DNA from: a virus
DNA length: 20,528 nt
Virus record (IMG/VR): IMGVR_UViG_3300008448_000841
Span: 1-20,528 of that record
Reading direction: 5' to 3' (one strand)
Positions 3,443 through 10,076 of the stretch are shown piece by piece. A program made the position numbers and the translations under genes. Numbering within the stretch: position 1 is the stretch's first letter; each line of letters begins with the position of its first letter. The notes under the pieces were generated by a model. The model was not told where the DNA came from. It saw nothing but the letters and a program-made list of their open reading frames with translations, and did not search any database.

Positions 3443-3646
3443 ATGGCACGAACCAAAGGTAGCACCAACACAACCACAACCCTACAAAAGCGTATTACAG
3501 CGTTAGAAGGATTAGTAGAGCGCCAAGATGAAGCAGTCGAGCAAGGGCTAGATGAGATAGCAGAGCTACGCAAGCAAGTGGACTTCTATCGCAAGCAAGT
3601 TAATCATCTAATTGCACTACTCAATATCATTACTAGGGGTGCATGA
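3443..3646 (+). CDS. Small coiled-coil protein
   Basis: A 67-residue protein. After a basic start with a Thr-rich stretch (MARTKGSTNTTTTLQKR), residues 18-60 show a regular heptad pattern of Leu/Val/Ile with charged residues between, as in a dimerising coiled coil. The ribosome site CGGGAGA overlaps the end of the upstream gene. Its TGA overlaps the ATG of the exonuclease gene, so the two are likely coupled in translation. It may be a partner of the exonuclease or an unrelated small regulator. The family is not recognised. Confidence 0.7.
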   Translation: MARTKGSTNTTTTLQKRITALEGLVERQDEAVEQGLDEIAELRKQVDFYRKQVNHLIALLNIITRGA

Positions 3647-4548
3647 TGGCTAATGCTCAAACAGACTTTGCGCCAGAGGTACGCAATAGCGCCTGGTGGT
3701 CTGGTGATTCCCGCATGGCTGCCAATGGTCGTGCGGTGGATGCCATACTCACTAAGCAAGGAAAACGGGAAGCGCCAGACTTATCCAATGTGGAAGCGGT
3801 GCAGATGGGTCATGTCATGCAACCCGTCATTGGGCGCTTATTTCAAGACAAACATAAGATGGAGTTAAAGGAAGCTGACTATGCCATCACTCACCCCAAA
3901 CACGATTGGATGCGTTCTCATTTTGATTTCATTAGTGCAGATGGTCGTGTGCTTGTTGAAGCAAAAAACTATAACGCTGGAGTTCGCAATAAGTTTGATG
4001 CCGATGCTAATCGGATTCCTGATGCTGATCTTGCCCAGCTCATACACGAATGTGCTTGTCATTCTATCGATCGTATATTTCTGGCTGTTCTATTTGGTGG
4101 AAGCGAATTCGTAACCATTGAGTTTGAGATCACCGAGGGTATGAAAGATGACCTAGTACAGCGTATGGCTAAGTTATGGGCATATTGCAAGACCGATAGC
4201 CTACCACCCGCAGAAACCATAGAGCAGACGAAGCTCATTTACCCCAATAGCACCGATGAGAGCATTGTTGCAACGCAAAATATTGAGTTAGCCGTAGCAC
4301 AACTCAAGCAATTTAAGGCAAACATCAAGGTCATGGAAGAACAGAGCGAAGCCCTAGAGGTAGCGATCCGTAACACCATGGGGGATAAGAGCGAGATCAT
4401 TTCTGTATCAGGGGAAACCTTAGTGACCTGGAGATCCGCTAAGACTTCCAAGCGCTTCTCTAGTGATCTCTTTAAACAAGCCATGCCAGATATTTACGAG
4501 CAGTTCGTGATTGAGCAGCCTGGTAGCCGTAGATTTTTAGTGAAGTAA
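3643..4548 (+). CDS. YqaJ-type (lambda-exonuclease-like) phage recombinase nuclease
   Basis: A 301-residue member of the PD-(D/E)XK phage exonucleases (YqaJ/lambda Exo type), which resect double-stranded DNA ends so that the partner annealing protein can load. Visible signs: an N-terminal segment with R14-N-S-A-W-W, the GHVMQPVI helix near 57-63 that takes the place of the usual G-x-x-x-E-P, Asp95 in SHFDF, the catalytic E106-A-K108 within LVEAKNY, and Gln132 in the following helix. Residues 210-250 form a coiled-coil-like helix, and the C-terminal 50 residues (WRSAKTSKRF...) match the tail often seen in phage YqaJ proteins. The ATG at 3643 overlaps the previous stop; an ATG at 3646 is spaced better from AGGGG and would drop one residue. 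The recT gene follows at once, the usual exonuclease-annealase pair. Confidence 0.87.
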   Translation: MMANAQTDFAPEVRNSAWWSGDSRMAANGRAVDAILTKQGKREAPDLSNVEAVQMGHVMQPVIGRLFQDKHKMELKEADYAITHPKHDWMRSHFDFISADGRVLVEAKNYNAGVRNKFDADANRIPDADLAQLIHECACHSIDRIFLAVLFGGSEFVTIEFEITEGMKDDLVQRMAKLWAYCKTDSLPPAETIEQTKLIYPNSTDESIVATQNIELAVAQLKQFKANIKVMEEQSEALEVAIRNTMGDKSEIISVSGETLVTWRSAKTSKRFSSDLFKQAMPDIYEQFVIEQPGSRRFLVK

Positions 4549-4569
4549 AGCCTAATGAAAGGGGATAAG

Positions 4570-5427
4570 ATGAGCAATATAGTCAGCTTTACGGATATGT
4601 CGCAGATGGCAGAAGCAATAGCCAAAAGCGGTTTATTCGGGATGAAGGACACCAATAGCGTATTAGCGCTAATGGCAGTAGCACAAGCGGAAGGTATGCA
4701 TCCAGCAACAGCAGCAAGGGATTTTCATATCATCCAAGGCAGACCAGCATTGAAAGCCGATGCCATGCTAGCAAGGTTTCAAAATGCGGGTGGAAAAGTA
4801 GATTGGAAGGACTATACCGATGAGAAAGTTACAGGCGTATTCAGTCACCCCAACGGTGGAGAGCTTGCCGTTACATGGACAATTGAACAGGCAACCAAGA
4901 TCGGGCTTGTCAAACCAGGTTCGGGCTGGCAAAAATTCCCAAGAGCCATGCTCAGATCCAGATGTATTTCAGAGGGCATACGAAGCGTGTTTCCAGGATC
5001 GGTTACGGGATTCTACAGCCCTGAAGAAGTGGCAGACTTTGAACCAAGCTCAAATGCAAAAACGATTACTTTGGAAGCAACACCTAAAACAATCGAAAAC
5101 CTAGAGAGTGATGACCTAACCGTTGATGTTAATAGCGGTGAGGTTACCGTATCCAAGCCTGGTAATTTCGGGAACATGGTTCATAAACTGCACTTGTATG
5201 TGCCAGGTCAGCAAGATCCTTACGCTACTTACTTCAACCTAGAGGATTGGATCGAAGGATTCCTGGATATTTTTAAGCGCATTCAAGATTCAACCAAGTA
5301 TGACGACCGAGAAAAAACCATGAAGTACAACCAATTGCGTGCTGCCAATGATGCTTTTACTAAGACATGGAGTGGTATGCAGACATCAAAGTTTTTAACC
5401 CGCATAGCTGAACTAAGGAGAGATTAA
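4570..5427 (+). CDS. recT: RecT-family ssDNA-annealing protein
   Basis: A 285-residue RecT/Bet-type annealing protein that coats resected single strands and pairs them with complementary DNA. Typical stretches are visible in the first 170 residues: an Ala-rich start, the segment QAEGMHPATAARDFHII, then RPALKADAMLARFQNAGGKV, and the signature WQKFPRAMLRSRCISEGIRSVFPG, followed by GFYSPEEVAD. The C-terminal third (from about 190) is less conserved and has a helical region around EDWIEGFLDIFKRIQ. ATG 4570 is chosen because AAAGGGGATAAG at 4558-4569 is a strong ribosome site. The frame could also open at 4555, but that would swallow it. It lies directly between the exonuclease and the mini SSB-like gene. 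Confidence 0.9.
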   Translation: MSNIVSFTDMSQMAEAIAKSGLFGMKDTNSVLALMAVAQAEGMHPATAARDFHIIQGRPALKADAMLARFQNAGGKVDWKDYTDEKVTGVFSHPNGGELAVTWTIEQATKIGLVKPGSGWQKFPRAMLRSRCISEGIRSVFPGSVTGFYSPEEVADFEPSSNAKTITLEATPKTIENLESDDLTVDVNSGEVTVSKPGNFGNMVHKLHLYVPGQQDPYATYFNLEDWIEGFLDIFKRIQDSTKYDDREKTMKYNQLRAANDAFTKTWSGMQTSKFLTRIAELRRD

Positions 5428-5694
5428 ATGGCTAATGGACATATTGCCCAAATGGGCAAAGGCGTATTGTTTGGTAACGCTGATAAGAAGCATGAGAAAG
5501 CACCTGATTGGAAAGGCACGATGTTGCTGTCTGAGGACTACAAAGCGGGTCAAACGCTCAAGATTGCTGGCTGGACTAAGAACACCCCAAAAGGGCAGCT
5601 CATTAGTCTATCCGAGGATAACTGGAAGCCACAAAACACCCAGGAATATCCAAGAGAAGTAAACCATGTTAAAGATTCAGATGTACCCTTTTAA
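5428..5694 (+). CDS. Mini SSB-like protein with SSB-type C-terminal tail
   Basis: An 88-residue protein that begins immediately after the recT stop, with ribosome site AAGGAGAG. The body (GVLFGN..KAPDWKGTMLLSED through TLKIAGWTKNT and LISLSEDNW) resembles the small beta-rich DUF736-type proteins with an OB-like strand pattern. The last residues read DSDVPF, an acidic-hydrophobic ending that matches the SSB C-terminal tip (consensus DDIPF). In SSB proteins that tip recruits partner proteins to single-stranded DNA. Together with its position after recT this supports a ssDNA-binding or partner-recruiting role. The fold assignment is by eye; the tail is direct from sequence. Confidence 0.7.
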   Translation: MANGHIAQMGKGVLFGNADKKHEKAPDWKGTMLLSEDYKAGQTLKIAGWTKNTPKGQLISLSEDNWKPQNTQEYPREVNHVKDSDVPF

Positions 5695-5704
5695 GGAGAT
5701 CACC

Positions 5705-5848
5705 ATGAAAAAAGCAATTGCTATTGTTTTACTGTCGATGATGTCGCTTTCCGTATCAGCTCAGGTCAAATGCCAGCCTGATGGTCGAGGTGGAATGTGC
5801 TGTTGGGATGTAGGCACGCAAGGACCATTTAAGCCTATTGGCTGTTAA
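5705..5848 (+). CDS. Secreted Cys-rich small peptide
   Basis: A 47-residue precursor with a clear signal peptide: MKKAIAI, a hydrophobic core (VLLSMMSLS) and a SVSA cleavage site after about residue 19. The mature part of about 28 residues starts QVKCQPDGRGG, contains four Cys (one adjacent pair, CCW) and ends IGC, so two disulfides in the periplasm are possible. The ribosome site TAAGGAGAT is one of the best in the window. The frame opens a few bases after the SSB-like gene and its TAA overlaps the ATG of the RusA gene. A longer in-frame start at 5666 lies inside the upstream gene and is unlikely. It is not a recombination protein by sequence, so its place in this operon is odd. Superinfection exclusion or envelope modulation are guesses. 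Confidence 0.75.
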   Translation: MKKAIAIVLLSMMSLSVSAQVKCQPDGRGGMCCWDVGTQGPFKPIGC

Positions 5849-6225
5849 TGATTGTCTTAGAACTACCCTACCCACCTTCAATCAATAACTACTGGATTGC
5901 TAGTGGACACCGCAGATTTATCAGTAAGCGTGGTGTCCTCTTTAGGCAAGCCGTCATGGAATATGTAATGGAACATGGAGTGCCAAAGCTAGGAGAGCAA
6001 GCGTTGAGTGTGCATATCGTATTAAGACCACGCAGCAAAAAGCTCATGGATATTGATAACTGTGCCAAAGCAATTTTAGATGCTTGCGAACACGCTGGTA
6101 TTTTTGATTCCGATGTCCAGGTGGAAAAGCTATTGATTGAGCGAGGGCTACCCAAAAAGGGTGGAGGGTGTGTCGTAATGATTGAATTAATCCCCTTTAG
6201 CTCAGAGGAGAATCCGCAAGGATAG
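5848..6225 (+). CDS. rusA: RusA-family Holliday junction resolvase
   Basis: A 125-residue protein of the usual RusA size, an endonuclease that cuts four-way DNA junctions as a dimer using metal ions. The conserved start LPYPPSINNYW (5-15) is present. The catalytic set is visible as Asp68 and Asp70 in MDIDNCAKAILDA, Lys74 in the following helix, and Asp89 in GIFDSDVQV. These correspond to the acidic triad plus lysine of the family. It follows the Cys-rich peptide with a TAATG overlap. It completes a resection, annealing and resolution set with the YqaJ nuclease and RecT. Confidence 0.92.
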   Translation: MIVLELPYPPSINNYWIASGHRRFISKRGVLFRQAVMEYVMEHGVPKLGEQALSVHIVLRPRSKKLMDIDNCAKAILDACEHAGIFDSDVQVEKLLIERGLPKKGGGCVVMIELIPFSSEENPQG

Positions 6226-6281: not shown

Positions 6282-6485
6282 ATGAATGTTCCATATAACA
6301 CAGGCAAGATCAAGATTGGCAGCAAGTATGCGCCACCACCAGTCAACTACATGGATGAGGATTCTGAACTAATCCAGAGCGCCATGTTGGGATTGTGGGC
6401 TAAAGAGCGCAGATTCCAAGTGAAGTTATGGGTTTACTTCATCCTTTTAATTGCTGGTATTTCACTTCTAATGGCTTCCAAATGA
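6282..6485 (+). CDS. Small single-pass membrane protein
   Basis: A 67-residue protein. Residues 1-45 are polar (MNVPYNTGKIKIGSKYAPP...), and residues 47-65 (KLWVYFILLIAGISLLMAS) form one transmembrane helix at the C-terminus. The ribosome site GGGAGATAAC precedes the ATG. Its TGA overlaps the ATG of the next small gene. No family is recognised; a tail-anchored inner-membrane topology with the bulk in the cytoplasm is inferred. Confidence 0.65.
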   Translation: MNVPYNTGKIKIGSKYAPPPVNYMDEDSELIQSAMLGLWAKERRFQVKLWVYFILLIAGISLLMASK

Positions 6486-6598: not shown

Positions 6599-7095
6599 TC
6601 TATTTCTTATCAAGTTTGGATACTTATGAGATTGCATGGGCAGCAGCAGACCGATGCAAATATAAGAAAGATCAGGGATTAGTCAACTACAAGCGGGTTG
6701 ATAAGAAGCGAGATAACTTCGGCACTTGTCGGGAAGGATTAACGGGCGAGTGGGCAGTTAGCAAGTACCTAGACATTCCCGTAAATCTTGAAAATTATTT
6801 GGGGGGTGACCCAGGTTGGGATTTTGAATACAAGGGCTTGAAGGTCGATGTCAAGACGACTAGGGCTAAGTACCTACTGTTTCAATCCCATGCTCATTTC
6901 AAAGCCGATGTAGCGATCCTAGTGCGCTATCACCAAGACTTCCTAGTGGAGATCCTAGGCGCTATTACACGGGAAGAATTTTTTAAGGTGGCAGAGATTA
7001 AAAACCTAGGCTATCACGATAACTATGTTGCAACGCAAGATCAACTAACACCAATTGAGGAATTTAAAAATGCAAGAGAACACCAAGAAGCCTAA
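6595..7095 (+). CDS. PD-(D/E)XK-fold nuclease-like protein
   Basis: A 166-residue protein (172 if begun at ATG 6577). Counting from 6577, Glu58 in LTGEWAV starts a helix, Asp78 and Asp82 lie in GGDPGWDF, and D91-V92-K93 lies in LKVDVKTT. This E...D...(D/E)xK order in a short alpha-beta-beta layout is typical of restriction-endonuclease-like folds, and the downstream strands AKYLLFQ and ADVAILVRY fit the core. ATG 6595 is preferred because it overlaps the previous TGA; no ribosome site supports either start well. The fold call is good but the substrate (DNA repair, host DNA breakdown, junctions) is unknown. Confidence 0.6.
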   Translation: MIYFLSSLDTYEIAWAAADRCKYKKDQGLVNYKRVDKKRDNFGTCREGLTGEWAVSKYLDIPVNLENYLGGDPGWDFEYKGLKVDVKTTRAKYLLFQSHAHFKADVAILVRYHQDFLVEILGAITREEFFKVAEIKNLGYHDNYVATQDQLTPIEEFKNAREHQEA

Positions 7096-7828
7096 GATTT
7101 TTATTGCTACGCCAATGTATGGCGGGATGTGCGCTGGCTTTTATACGCAGTCCATCATTCAACTCTTGACCACTTGCCAGGCTAATGGCGTGGATGCGGA
7201 GTTTAGCTTTATGTTTAATGAGAGCCTGATTACCAGGGCTAGGAACTCATTGACTAGCACATTCCTAAAGACCGATTGCACCCACTTGATGTTCATTGAT
7301 TCGGATATTAAGTTTAGGGCAGAGGATGTGATCCACATGATCCGAGCAAATAAGGATGTGCTGTGCGGTATCTATCCAAAGAAAGAGATCAACTGGTATT
7401 CAGTCAAAGCTGCCATGGATCGTGGTGTGCCATTCGATCAACTCAAGAGCCATACGGGTAGTTTTGTCGTAAACCTAGTGAACTATGTGGGCGAGGTCAC
7501 CGTACCCATTGGAGAGCCAGTCGAGATATTCAATGGTGGTACAGGATTCATGCTGATTAAGCGTGAGGTGTTTGATAAGTTAGGAGAGGTAGTGCCAAGC
7601 TATTCCAATGATGTGGTGGATCTAGGCGGTAAGATGGCGCAGTCTGAGCCAATCAAGGAATTCTTTACCACTTCCATTGAACCAGGCACAAATCGCTTAC
7701 TGTCTGAGGACTATCACTTTTGCCGTATTTGGAGAGAATCAGGCGGTCAAGTCTTTGCAGCGCCATGGTGTCAGCTAGCACACATCGGCACATATACATT
7801 TGAAGGTCAACTAACACCAGCGAGTTAA
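7070..7828 (+). CDS. GT-A-type glycosyltransferase
   Basis: A 252-residue protein. The N-terminal strand KIFIATPMYGGM, the stretch ESLITRARNSLTSTFL and the strand-acid motif HLMFIDSDI (72-80), with the D-S-D at 77-79 as the likely metal/nucleotide-sugar site, match GT-A glycosyltransferases found in phages. GGTGFMLIKREVFDKLG and SEDYHFCRIWRESGG are typical of the acceptor half. The ATG at 7070 is chosen for the ribosome site TGAGGA just upstream; the longer frame from 7055 would contain that site. It overlaps the end of the nuclease-like gene and is followed one base later by the FkbM gene. The two probably add and methylate a sugar. The acceptor (host surface, virion protein or DNA) cannot be told from sequence. 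Confidence 0.78.
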   Translation: MQENTKKPKIFIATPMYGGMCAGFYTQSIIQLLTTCQANGVDAEFSFMFNESLITRARNSLTSTFLKTDCTHLMFIDSDIKFRAEDVIHMIRANKDVLCGIYPKKEINWYSVKAAMDRGVPFDQLKSHTGSFVVNLVNYVGEVTVPIGEPVEIFNGGTGFMLIKREVFDKLGEVVPSYSNDVVDLGGKMAQSEPIKEFFTTSIEPGTNRLLSEDYHFCRIWRESGGQVFAAPWCQLAHIGTYTFEGQLTPAS

Positions 7829-7829
7829 C

Positions 7830-8543
7830 ATGAAAAAACATACCGTGAATGGAAAAGAACTTGAGTTTAATGATGAGAACTTGGTAGCGGTTTACCAAAA
7901 CCAATACCGTTTGTATGACCGTTTTTTGCCACACCTGGCTAGTTACATAGAGGGTACAGTCGTGGATGTTGGTGCGAACTGTGGTGCATTAGCCGTAGCC
8001 ATGGGCGTAAACAATCCAGCCCTAGAGTTTGTCTGCATTGAGCCAGAGGATAAGCACCTACAGCACTTGCATAAGAATGTGTTGCAAATTAGCAACAAGG
8101 TTCAAGTGGACAAGGCTAAGATCGGTACGCAGTTCAAGCTGCTCGATAAAGTGCTTGAGGAGTTTGAGGTCAAGGACATTGGCTTACTCAAGGTGGATGT
8201 GGATGGGTATGATTGGGATGTGCTAGATAGCTATTCGTTTGCGCAGAAGCCACCCATTTACATTGAGGAAGATTTTAAAGAGCCATGGCAATACGAGAAA
8301 TACTTTGCCATGAACCAGCGCTTATCCAATCTGGGCTACAACAACATCTGGATGTTTGACAACTTTGGTTGCCTAATTGGGTTTACAAAGGACTGGGATG
8401 TAGTCAATAGTCTTAATGCGTATGTTAATCGCATGAAAACTGGACAGTCAGCCATTACATTGTGGTACATGGATTTGCTGCTATGCCAAGACCAGGATGT
8501 TGATAATCTAGGTCAAGGCGTAATCAGCTATATCAGCGCTTAG
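7830..8543 (+). CDS. FkbM-family SAM-dependent methyltransferase
   Basis: A 237-residue protein with FkbM features. The S-adenosylmethionine loop is VVDVGANCGALAVAMG (44-59), the acidic end of the second strand is VCIEPED (68-74), and the family signature follows at LLKVDVDGYDWDVL (119-132). FkbM enzymes usually O-methylate sugars or polyketides. The gene begins one base after the glycosyltransferase stop, with only a weak ribosome site, so coupled translation is likely. The C-terminal 100 residues (KPPIYIEEDFKEPWQYEKYF onward) complete the Rossmann fold. Its stop lies inside the last - strand gene, an 11-bp convergent overlap. It is the last + strand gene of the window. Confidence 0.85.
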   Translation: MKKHTVNGKELEFNDENLVAVYQNQYRLYDRFLPHLASYIEGTVVDVGANCGALAVAMGVNNPALEFVCIEPEDKHLQHLHKNVLQISNKVQVDKAKIGTQFKLLDKVLEEFEVKDIGLLKVDVDGYDWDVLDSYSFAQKPPIYIEEDFKEPWQYEKYFAMNQRLSNLGYNNIWMFDNFGCLIGFTKDWDVVNSLNAYVNRMKTGQSAITLWYMDLLLCQDQDVDNLGQGVISYISA

Positions 8544-9252: not shown

Positions 9253-9679
9253 ACGGGCGTGTTCCTTGTTTGTCAATAATGAGGGCTTGCTGTCTAGGCT
9301 TGTCCTCTGGGTTGTTAGGGATCGAGATATGTGTCCAACGGTCAAACTCTCGAATGATTTGATCGTATCCTAAGCCAGCAGCAATTACAGTCTTAACCAC
9401 CTCATCAGGTGTCATTCCAGGTACACGAATGTCGGCTGCACAGCCAACACGGTGCTGACTAGTGTCCTTGCTACCAACGGCATCATTGACTTGTTTTGAG
9501 CGAAATGCGCTGTTAATCATTACTGGCTTATCACCCAACACATTCCTGACTTGCTCTAGAAATTTGGCAAGGCGAACCAGGTTGGCTAACTCATCCGTGC
9601 TTGGCGTGTTGTCAAACTGCCGATGATCGGTATGCGTTAACTCCTCAAGCGTAAAGTGCCTACTAAGCGGGGTTATCAT
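9242..9679 (-). CDS. M15A-family peptidase, endolysin
   Basis: A 145-residue zinc peptidase of the M15A (D-Ala-D-Ala carboxypeptidase-like) type used as a compact phage lysin. The family signature S-x-H-x-x-G-x-A-x-D is read at S74-Q-H76-R-V-G-C-A-A-D83, and the second metal-binding histidine lies in WTHIS (His117). The N-terminus LSRHFTLEELTHTDH and the segment MINSAFRS are also typical. It has no signal peptide, so release would depend on the holin encoded directly upstream (overlap 17 bp). Expected target: peptide cross-links of host peptidoglycan. Confidence 0.9.
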   Translation of the reverse strand: MITPLSRHFTLEELTHTDHRQFDNTPSTDELANLVRLAKFLEQVRNVLGDKPVMINSAFRSKQVNDAVGSKDTSQHRVGCAADIRVPGMTPDEVVKTVIAAGLGYDQIIREFDRWTHISIPNNPEDKPRQQALIIDKQGTRPYAA

Positions 9680-10076
9680 TTCGCTTAGACCTCATATCCA
9701 TGATCTTTTCTAGCGTGCGCCCACCAAAGTAAAAGCTCATTATGAGCATTCCCCAGTCACCTAATAAACGCACATAGCTTTCATTAGCGTTCATATTGAA
9801 GGCGCTCATCATGGCAAATACAAAGTAACCGACTAAAATAGCAATTAAGGTCATAGGGCGAATGTTTTTAGATAGCCAGCTATCACTAGACATATCCGAT
9901 TGTTGACGCTTGGTTAGCTCTTGAGCTTCAATATTATCTGCATTGAGTTCAGCCAATCTGCCTTCTTGTTGCATCTTGAGCAGTTCTTGTTGGGCTTTAG
10001 CTTTGGCTTCTGGATCAGGAATGAACTTGTCTAAGACTTTCATTCCAACATCAAACAGAGCTGTTAACGGAAACAT
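9663..10076 (-). CDS. Holin (GTA/3TM-type family)
   Basis: A 137-residue membrane protein. Residues 22-65 form a charged helical cytoplasmic region (DPEAKAKAQQELLKMQQEG). A hydrophobic stretch (about 75-95, MTLIAILVGYFVFAMMSAF) and a second (about 103-119, RLLGDWGMLIMSFYFGG) are followed by GRTLEKIMDMRSKR. The ending FYFGGRTLEKI is characteristic of the small phage/GTA holin family. The gene sits directly before the endolysin and overlaps it, the usual lysis-cassette order. No spanin pair was recognised in the window. Confidence 0.82.
   Translation of the reverse strand: MFPLTALFDVGMKVLDKFIPDPEAKAKAQQELLKMQQEGRLAELNADNIEAQELTKRQQSDMSSDSWLSKNIRPMTLIAILVGYFVFAMMSAFNMNANESYVRLLGDWGMLIMSFYFGGRTLEKIMDMRSKRNDNPA

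Follow-up and report, generated by a model that had tools for sequence, protein, structure and literature searches.

A small, probably exported four-cysteine peptide encoded as an accessory cassette in phage replication and recombination operons, and its possible role in superinfection exclusion

Why would a gene for a short and apparently exported cysteine-rich peptide be placed in the middle of a phage DNA recombination operon, and what might its product do? Such a gene is found in the window, i.e., the whole 20,528-nucleotide stretch of viral DNA analyzed here. The initial annotation described a signal-bearing, four-cysteine reading frame of 47 residues, and the translation of window positions 5705-5848 on the + strand (MKKAIAIVLLSMMSLSVSAQVKCQPDGRGGMCCWDVGTQGPFKPIGC) matches this exactly. 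The precursor consists of the start residue, Lys-Lys, a hydrophobic core, SVSA, the predicted cut, Q and then the 28-residue four-cysteine part. Its cysteines are at positions 23, 32, 33 and 47, which places the first of them fourth in the predicted mature part.

The ribosome binding site had also been ranked among the strongest of the window, and this holds: AAGGAG lies 6 nt ahead of the ATG, and its duplex with the anti-Shine-Dalgarno sequence (-9.2 kcal/mol) is second among the 37 starts tested. The frame is open further upstream to an ATG at 5666, which would give 60 aa, but the start at 5705 is favored because both the relatives and the Shine-Dalgarno sequence support it. The Shine-Dalgarno sequence of rusA itself is almost nil (-1.6) and its start overlaps the stop of the peptide gene, and rusA is therefore probably translated by coupling to the peptide gene. 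Profile matches bear out both proposed neighbors, the SSB-like gene and rusA (Table 1), within a codirectional operon ordered YqaJ-RecT-SSB-[peptide]-RusA. For the RecT-like gene, the start with the best score is 4570. The SSB-like protein has a C-terminus (DSDVPF) resembling the acidic tip of cellular SSB, and its sole match is a weak one to one small phage family.

Table 1. Features of the peptide gene and its operon in the window.
Feature	Position	Strand	Basis
YqaJ/RecE-like exonuclease, same operon	3643..4548	+	PF09588 E 1.8e-5; phrog_434 E 1.8e-42
RecT-like annealing protein, same operon	4555..5427	+	PF03837 E 4e-9; phrog_561 E 1.6e-26
SSB-like gene, upstream neighbor	5428..5694	+	phrog_18154 E 2.7e-7
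Shine-Dalgarno AAGGAG	5693..5698	+	Overlaps SSB stop codon 5692-5694
Four-cysteine microprotein gene, probably exported product, 47 codons, with stop	5705..5848	+	Relatives, purifying selection
Predicted signal peptide, residues 1-19 (MKKAIAIVLLSMMSLSVSA)	5705..5761	+	Rule-based; predicted SPase I cut after SVSA
Predicted mature 28-residue peptide QVKCQPDGRGGMCCWDVGTQGPFKPIGC, C-x8-CC-x13-C	5762..5845	+	Invariant residues, predicted beta-hairpin 21-25/31-35
TAATG, peptide gene stop/rusA start overlap	5846..5850	+	Sequence
rusA-like Holliday junction resolvase, downstream neighbor	5848..6225	+	PF05866 E 3.4e-10; phrog_34 E 1e-26

Relatives of the peptide were found in IMG/VR, 51 in one scan and 144 in another, and more sequences were added by neighbor-gene scans and a divergent-group scan. 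This gave 81 distinct precursors before the last, divergent-group scan; with that scan included, the distinct genomic contexts number 122. In an alignment of 57 members with 28-96% identity to the window protein, eight positions do not vary (C23, G29, C32, C33, W34, G40, P44 and C47), and conservation reaches at least 90% at M1, K22 and A19, the last being the predicted -1 residue. The pattern of this CCWD microprotein family, which the window protein fits, is a signal-like N-terminus followed by C-terminal K-C-x(6-8)-C-C-W-[DEN]-x(4-5)-G-x-x-x-P-x-x-C. For 60 gapless homologues, the dN/dS estimates are about 0.10 for the mature part and about 0.30 for the signal part; the raw ratios, from pairs with 80-97% nucleotide identity, are 0.12 and 0.23, respectively. 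Purifying selection on the mature part is strong, and we regard this as almost certainly a real, selected gene with a signal sequence.

The N-terminal sequence is variable across the family, yet the signal-peptide-like pattern is kept. By home-made rules, all 81 precursors combine a hydrophobic core with a permissive SPase-I type (A-x-A) site, and a stricter rule, also home-made, passes 75 of the 81 family members compared with one of 57 short ORFs taken at random from the window. A lipobox is found in none of the 81. Conservation of the signal peptide and the cysteines, on which the proposal of an exported cysteine-rich phage factor had been made to depend, thus extends to divergent relatives, and that proposal is well supported by the conserved signal-like N-terminus, the SPase-I type site and the four cysteines. 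Based on the former two features the peptide is very likely exported, and the invariance of all four cysteines points to two disulfides in it. AlphaFold2 with the 57-member alignment gave a mean pLDDT of 79 and a pTM of 0.43, with blocks of the mature part at 84-88. In the model the signal is helical and strands 21-25 and 31-35 pair as a hairpin, suggesting that the mature part forms a beta-hairpin; the disulfide pairing is beyond the model's resolution. In one subgroup (L170:1995-2145), the peptide gene begins at a GTG inside the coding end of SSB, so that the SSB tail, in a different frame, also encodes part of the signal peptide.

Outside IMG/VR the family is scarce. Among 50,697 GenBank phage records, one has a member (MW202753.1, Bacteriophage sp., Manatee Spring); its product UOF81604.1, annotated as hypothetical/uncharacterized, shows 62% identity across the mature part and is encoded directly upstream of a resolvase gene. 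BFVD likewise holds one member, the uncharacterized A0A6J5SYK8 of an uncultured Caudovirales phage (51% identity over 49 residues, Foldseek E 1.7e-4). No match to the family was found in plasmids. A search of about 85,000 prokaryote species genomes with near-consensus patterns, which distant cellular relatives could escape, gave no true match, and therefore this appears to be a phage family that is rarely if ever present in sequenced prophages. A match in Pedobacter (L054) covered 15 residues of a repeat stretch without a matching gene, and was judged to be chance. We take the carriers to be largely freshwater phages, going by the IMG sample numbers and the Manatee Spring source of MW202753.1.

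Searches for a known relative returned no match in Pfam or NCBIfam and only sub-threshold matches in PHROGs. The best of these, phrog_19904 (function unknown), gave E 0.056 with the window protein and at best 0.003 over the 57 members, which is not significant, and the profile, run against the window record, gave no hit even at E 10. Sequence and fold searches of the PDB gave nothing usable, the fold matches being noise. The likeness of 'C-PDG...CC...G' to a granulin motif was supported by no search, and a literature search for this type of peptide found only general papers on exclusion.

That such a gene lies among recombination genes had been considered odd by the initial annotation. The position is correct, but such a setting is typical of the family: DNA-replication/recombination genes are near the peptide gene in 121 of the 122 contexts, where a context is a distinct 250-base surrounding on contigs that are often fragmentary and partly redundant, and not an independent acquisition. 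The order SSB-[pep]-RusA accounts for 84 contexts, PDDEXK-[pep]-ERF for 14 and serine resolvase-[pep]-YqaJ for six, while the others are of DUF3310/PolA/Hjc-like type or have mixed orders (Pfam names). In most contexts the peptide gene directly adjoins SSB, RusA or RecT. Between the window and a contig of the DUF3310-PolA type (L019), the mature peptide is identical at 28 of 28 residues, and the 200-base flanks are 48% identical against a random baseline of 47.6%. The mature peptide recurs in at least four unrelated types of replication/recombination operon. Five carriers (G013, G014, G015, G017 and G022) have only one to four ORFs of at least 100 aa in common with the window, compared with 15 in G012, whose operon is of the window's type; as the window is a 20.5-kb fragment, some common genes may go unseen in these counts.

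A possible companion of the peptide was considered in the tail-anchored 'KIGS' protein encoded at 6282-6485 of the window. It occurs at 74 of the 154 peptide-bearing loci and at 34 of the 57 that lack the peptide, and the two are unlinked. This small protein carries the motif 'PYNTGKIKIGSKY...' and has a membrane segment at its C-terminus. Its 55 distinct relatives are spread over 164 of 329 loci and again lie close to these replication modules. It has no match in Pfam or PHROGs.

The same SSB and RusA genes are found with the peptide gene between them in many phages, and in others SSB is joined straight to rusA. Peptide-free junctions of this kind are seen in L266, L279, L166 and others, with the sequence ...GATGTACCCTTTTAATGG... 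in L266 and L279. In L266, L279 and L250, SSB is joined directly to rusA by TAATG, the same TAATG that joins the peptide gene to rusA in the window. Nine relatives with a peptide-free junction (records of 12.6-36 kb) have the peptide nowhere in the record. One window protein, of 813 aa, has 77-80% identity to its counterparts in the non-carriers G001, G002 and G007 and 80% to that in the carrier G029; the peptide gene has therefore been either gained or lost between close relatives. In L170, L144 and L145 the slot is occupied by strongly diverged members, some of them GTG-started inside the SSB tail. The peptide gene is an exact, dispensable and self-contained cassette.

What, then, might the cassette do? 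We propose that it is expressed together with the replication and recombination genes, presumably early given this operon setting. The precursor would pass through the Sec system and be cut after SVSA, and the 28-residue peptide would fold in the envelope or periplasm with two disulfides. There it might bind a host envelope component, and the bound peptide would block or weaken the entry of further phages, as T4 Spackle or T5 Llp do. We think it likely that the peptide is an accessory factor acting in the envelope; superinfection exclusion specifically is our leading mechanism, and is put forward tentatively on the basis of analogy. The initial annotation had suggested superinfection exclusion or envelope inhibition, and either would suit a gene of this type, with a product that is probably early, exported, likely rich in disulfides, accessory and distributed among phages. 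A target on the host side is preferred because the mature peptide is near-identical in phages with little else in common, and a host component is thus more likely than the tail protein of one phage. Against exclusion, the tie to replication and recombination could mean a role in DNA metabolism or mere co-regulation, and the peptide has no fold match among solved structures and no characterized homologue. It is also smaller than mature Spackle, and unlike the exclusion proteins known to block receptors (Llp and Cor) it is not a lipoprotein.

The closest functional parallels differ from the peptide in structure. In T4, the Spackle gene is situated among DNA-replication genes. Spackle (Sp, gp61.3) is an early, signal-bearing product that is cleaved, periplasmic and disulfide-bonded, acts in superinfection exclusion and is understood structurally (PMC7677548). 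Its mature part, an alpha-helical bundle of 75 residues containing a single disulfide, targets the tail lysozyme of T4 relatives. The window protein shares with it a predicted, rule-based N-terminal signal peptide and a small exported mature domain, but this domain has 28 aa, a predicted beta-hairpin and four cysteines, and Pfam and PDB sequence searches found no similarity to Spackle. T5 Llp, which is small, exported and disulfide-bonded, blocks FhuA, a receptor of the host, and the peptide resembles Llp and T1-type Cor as a small exported phage protein with a disulfide that would target a host component from the periplasmic side (PMC9586334). However, Llp and Cor are lipoproteins with a lipidated cysteine at +1, whereas the lipobox is lacking throughout the peptide family, and no similarity to either was found. 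The family is therefore not a member of the Spackle type, given its fold and length, nor of the Llp type, given its lack of lipidation. It may possibly represent a new class, although this is doubtful at present, of non-lipidated exported peptides of about 28 residues with two disulfides, which many unrelated, freshwater-type phages exchange as a single-gene cassette within their replication operons and which block an envelope component common to the hosts of these phages.

Other functions would also be compatible with parts of this evidence. An exported peptide of the same anatomy as an exclusion factor could inhibit an enzyme or process of the host envelope and so favor phage production in the infected cell, with secondary phages unaffected; a cell-wall hydrolase, a periplasmic protease or nuclease, or a sensor of envelope stress or defense would be candidate targets. 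That a compact Trp/Cys/Gly-rich peptide is so strongly conserved among unrelated phages suggests that its target in the host is conserved too, whereas the lack of a match to any solved fold speaks against this explanation, which we consider possible but rather unlikely. A factor that times lysis by acting on the phage holin or endolysin, in the way of T4 RI or of a lysozyme inhibitor in the periplasm, would also be exported to that compartment, and T4 Spackle mutants additionally show a collapse of lysis inhibition (PMC7677548). The window holin is moreover 60-89% identical in several otherwise unrelated carriers. However, the holin occurs in seven of nine non-carriers and in less than half of the carriers, and the M15 endolysin in eight of nine non-carriers and few carriers, while the peptide gene and the lysis genes are in different operons on opposite strands. 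Because presence of the peptide does not track holin or endolysin, lysis control is improbable.

The near-constant presence of DNA-metabolism genes nearby, with SSB, RusA or RecT mostly adjacent, might instead suggest a non-exported protein that is anchored in the inner membrane and works with the SSB/recombinase machinery. This is at odds with the SPase-I type site in every precursor and with four invariant cysteines, which suit an oxidizing compartment; in the usual orientation, an anchored protein would still have its cysteine part on the periplasmic side. The DNA enzymes alongside also change between operons while the peptide stays constant. On this ground a role as recombination partner was rejected and a dedicated function in recombination is considered less likely, and we give the membrane-anchored helper little credence. 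In form, a signal followed by a short cysteine-rich mature part resembles secreted antimicrobial peptides, and the product might act on neighboring cells as a bacteriocin-like or communication peptide. In arbitrium-type systems the receptor gene lies beside the peptide gene; here, no immunity, receptor or exporter gene was recognized alongside, and the genome search described above found no cellular homologues, which makes action on neighboring cells very unlikely.

If superinfection exclusion is correct, the peptide would be among the smallest periplasmic exclusion (or anti-envelope-defense) factors known. The family is present in more than 100 phage contigs, yet in a single GenBank phage record, which suggests that a widespread interaction between phage and host has gone unseen in laboratory phages. 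Because close relatives differ in having or lacking exactly this gene, its function could be tested in natural or engineered pairs, and a peptide of 28 residues with two probable disulfides is within reach of synthesis. Should it block secondary infection, it would provide a minimal tool to find envelope targets of phage entry.

Some other genes of the window can be assigned. The holin, encoded at 9663-10076, has three transmembrane segments (PF11351), and its identities across otherwise unrelated phages of the set suggest that lysis genes are swapped within a common host pool. The gene at 512-1498 encodes an ArdC-type antirestriction protein (ArdcN, PF08401, E 6.6e-34) with a zincin-like metallopeptidase domain (PF18818, E 1.5e-47). 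The region 7055-8543 encodes a glycosyltransferase-like protein, with a weak Anp1 match and relatives in large phages, followed by an FkbM-type methyltransferase (PF05050); the two are possibly a modification pair.
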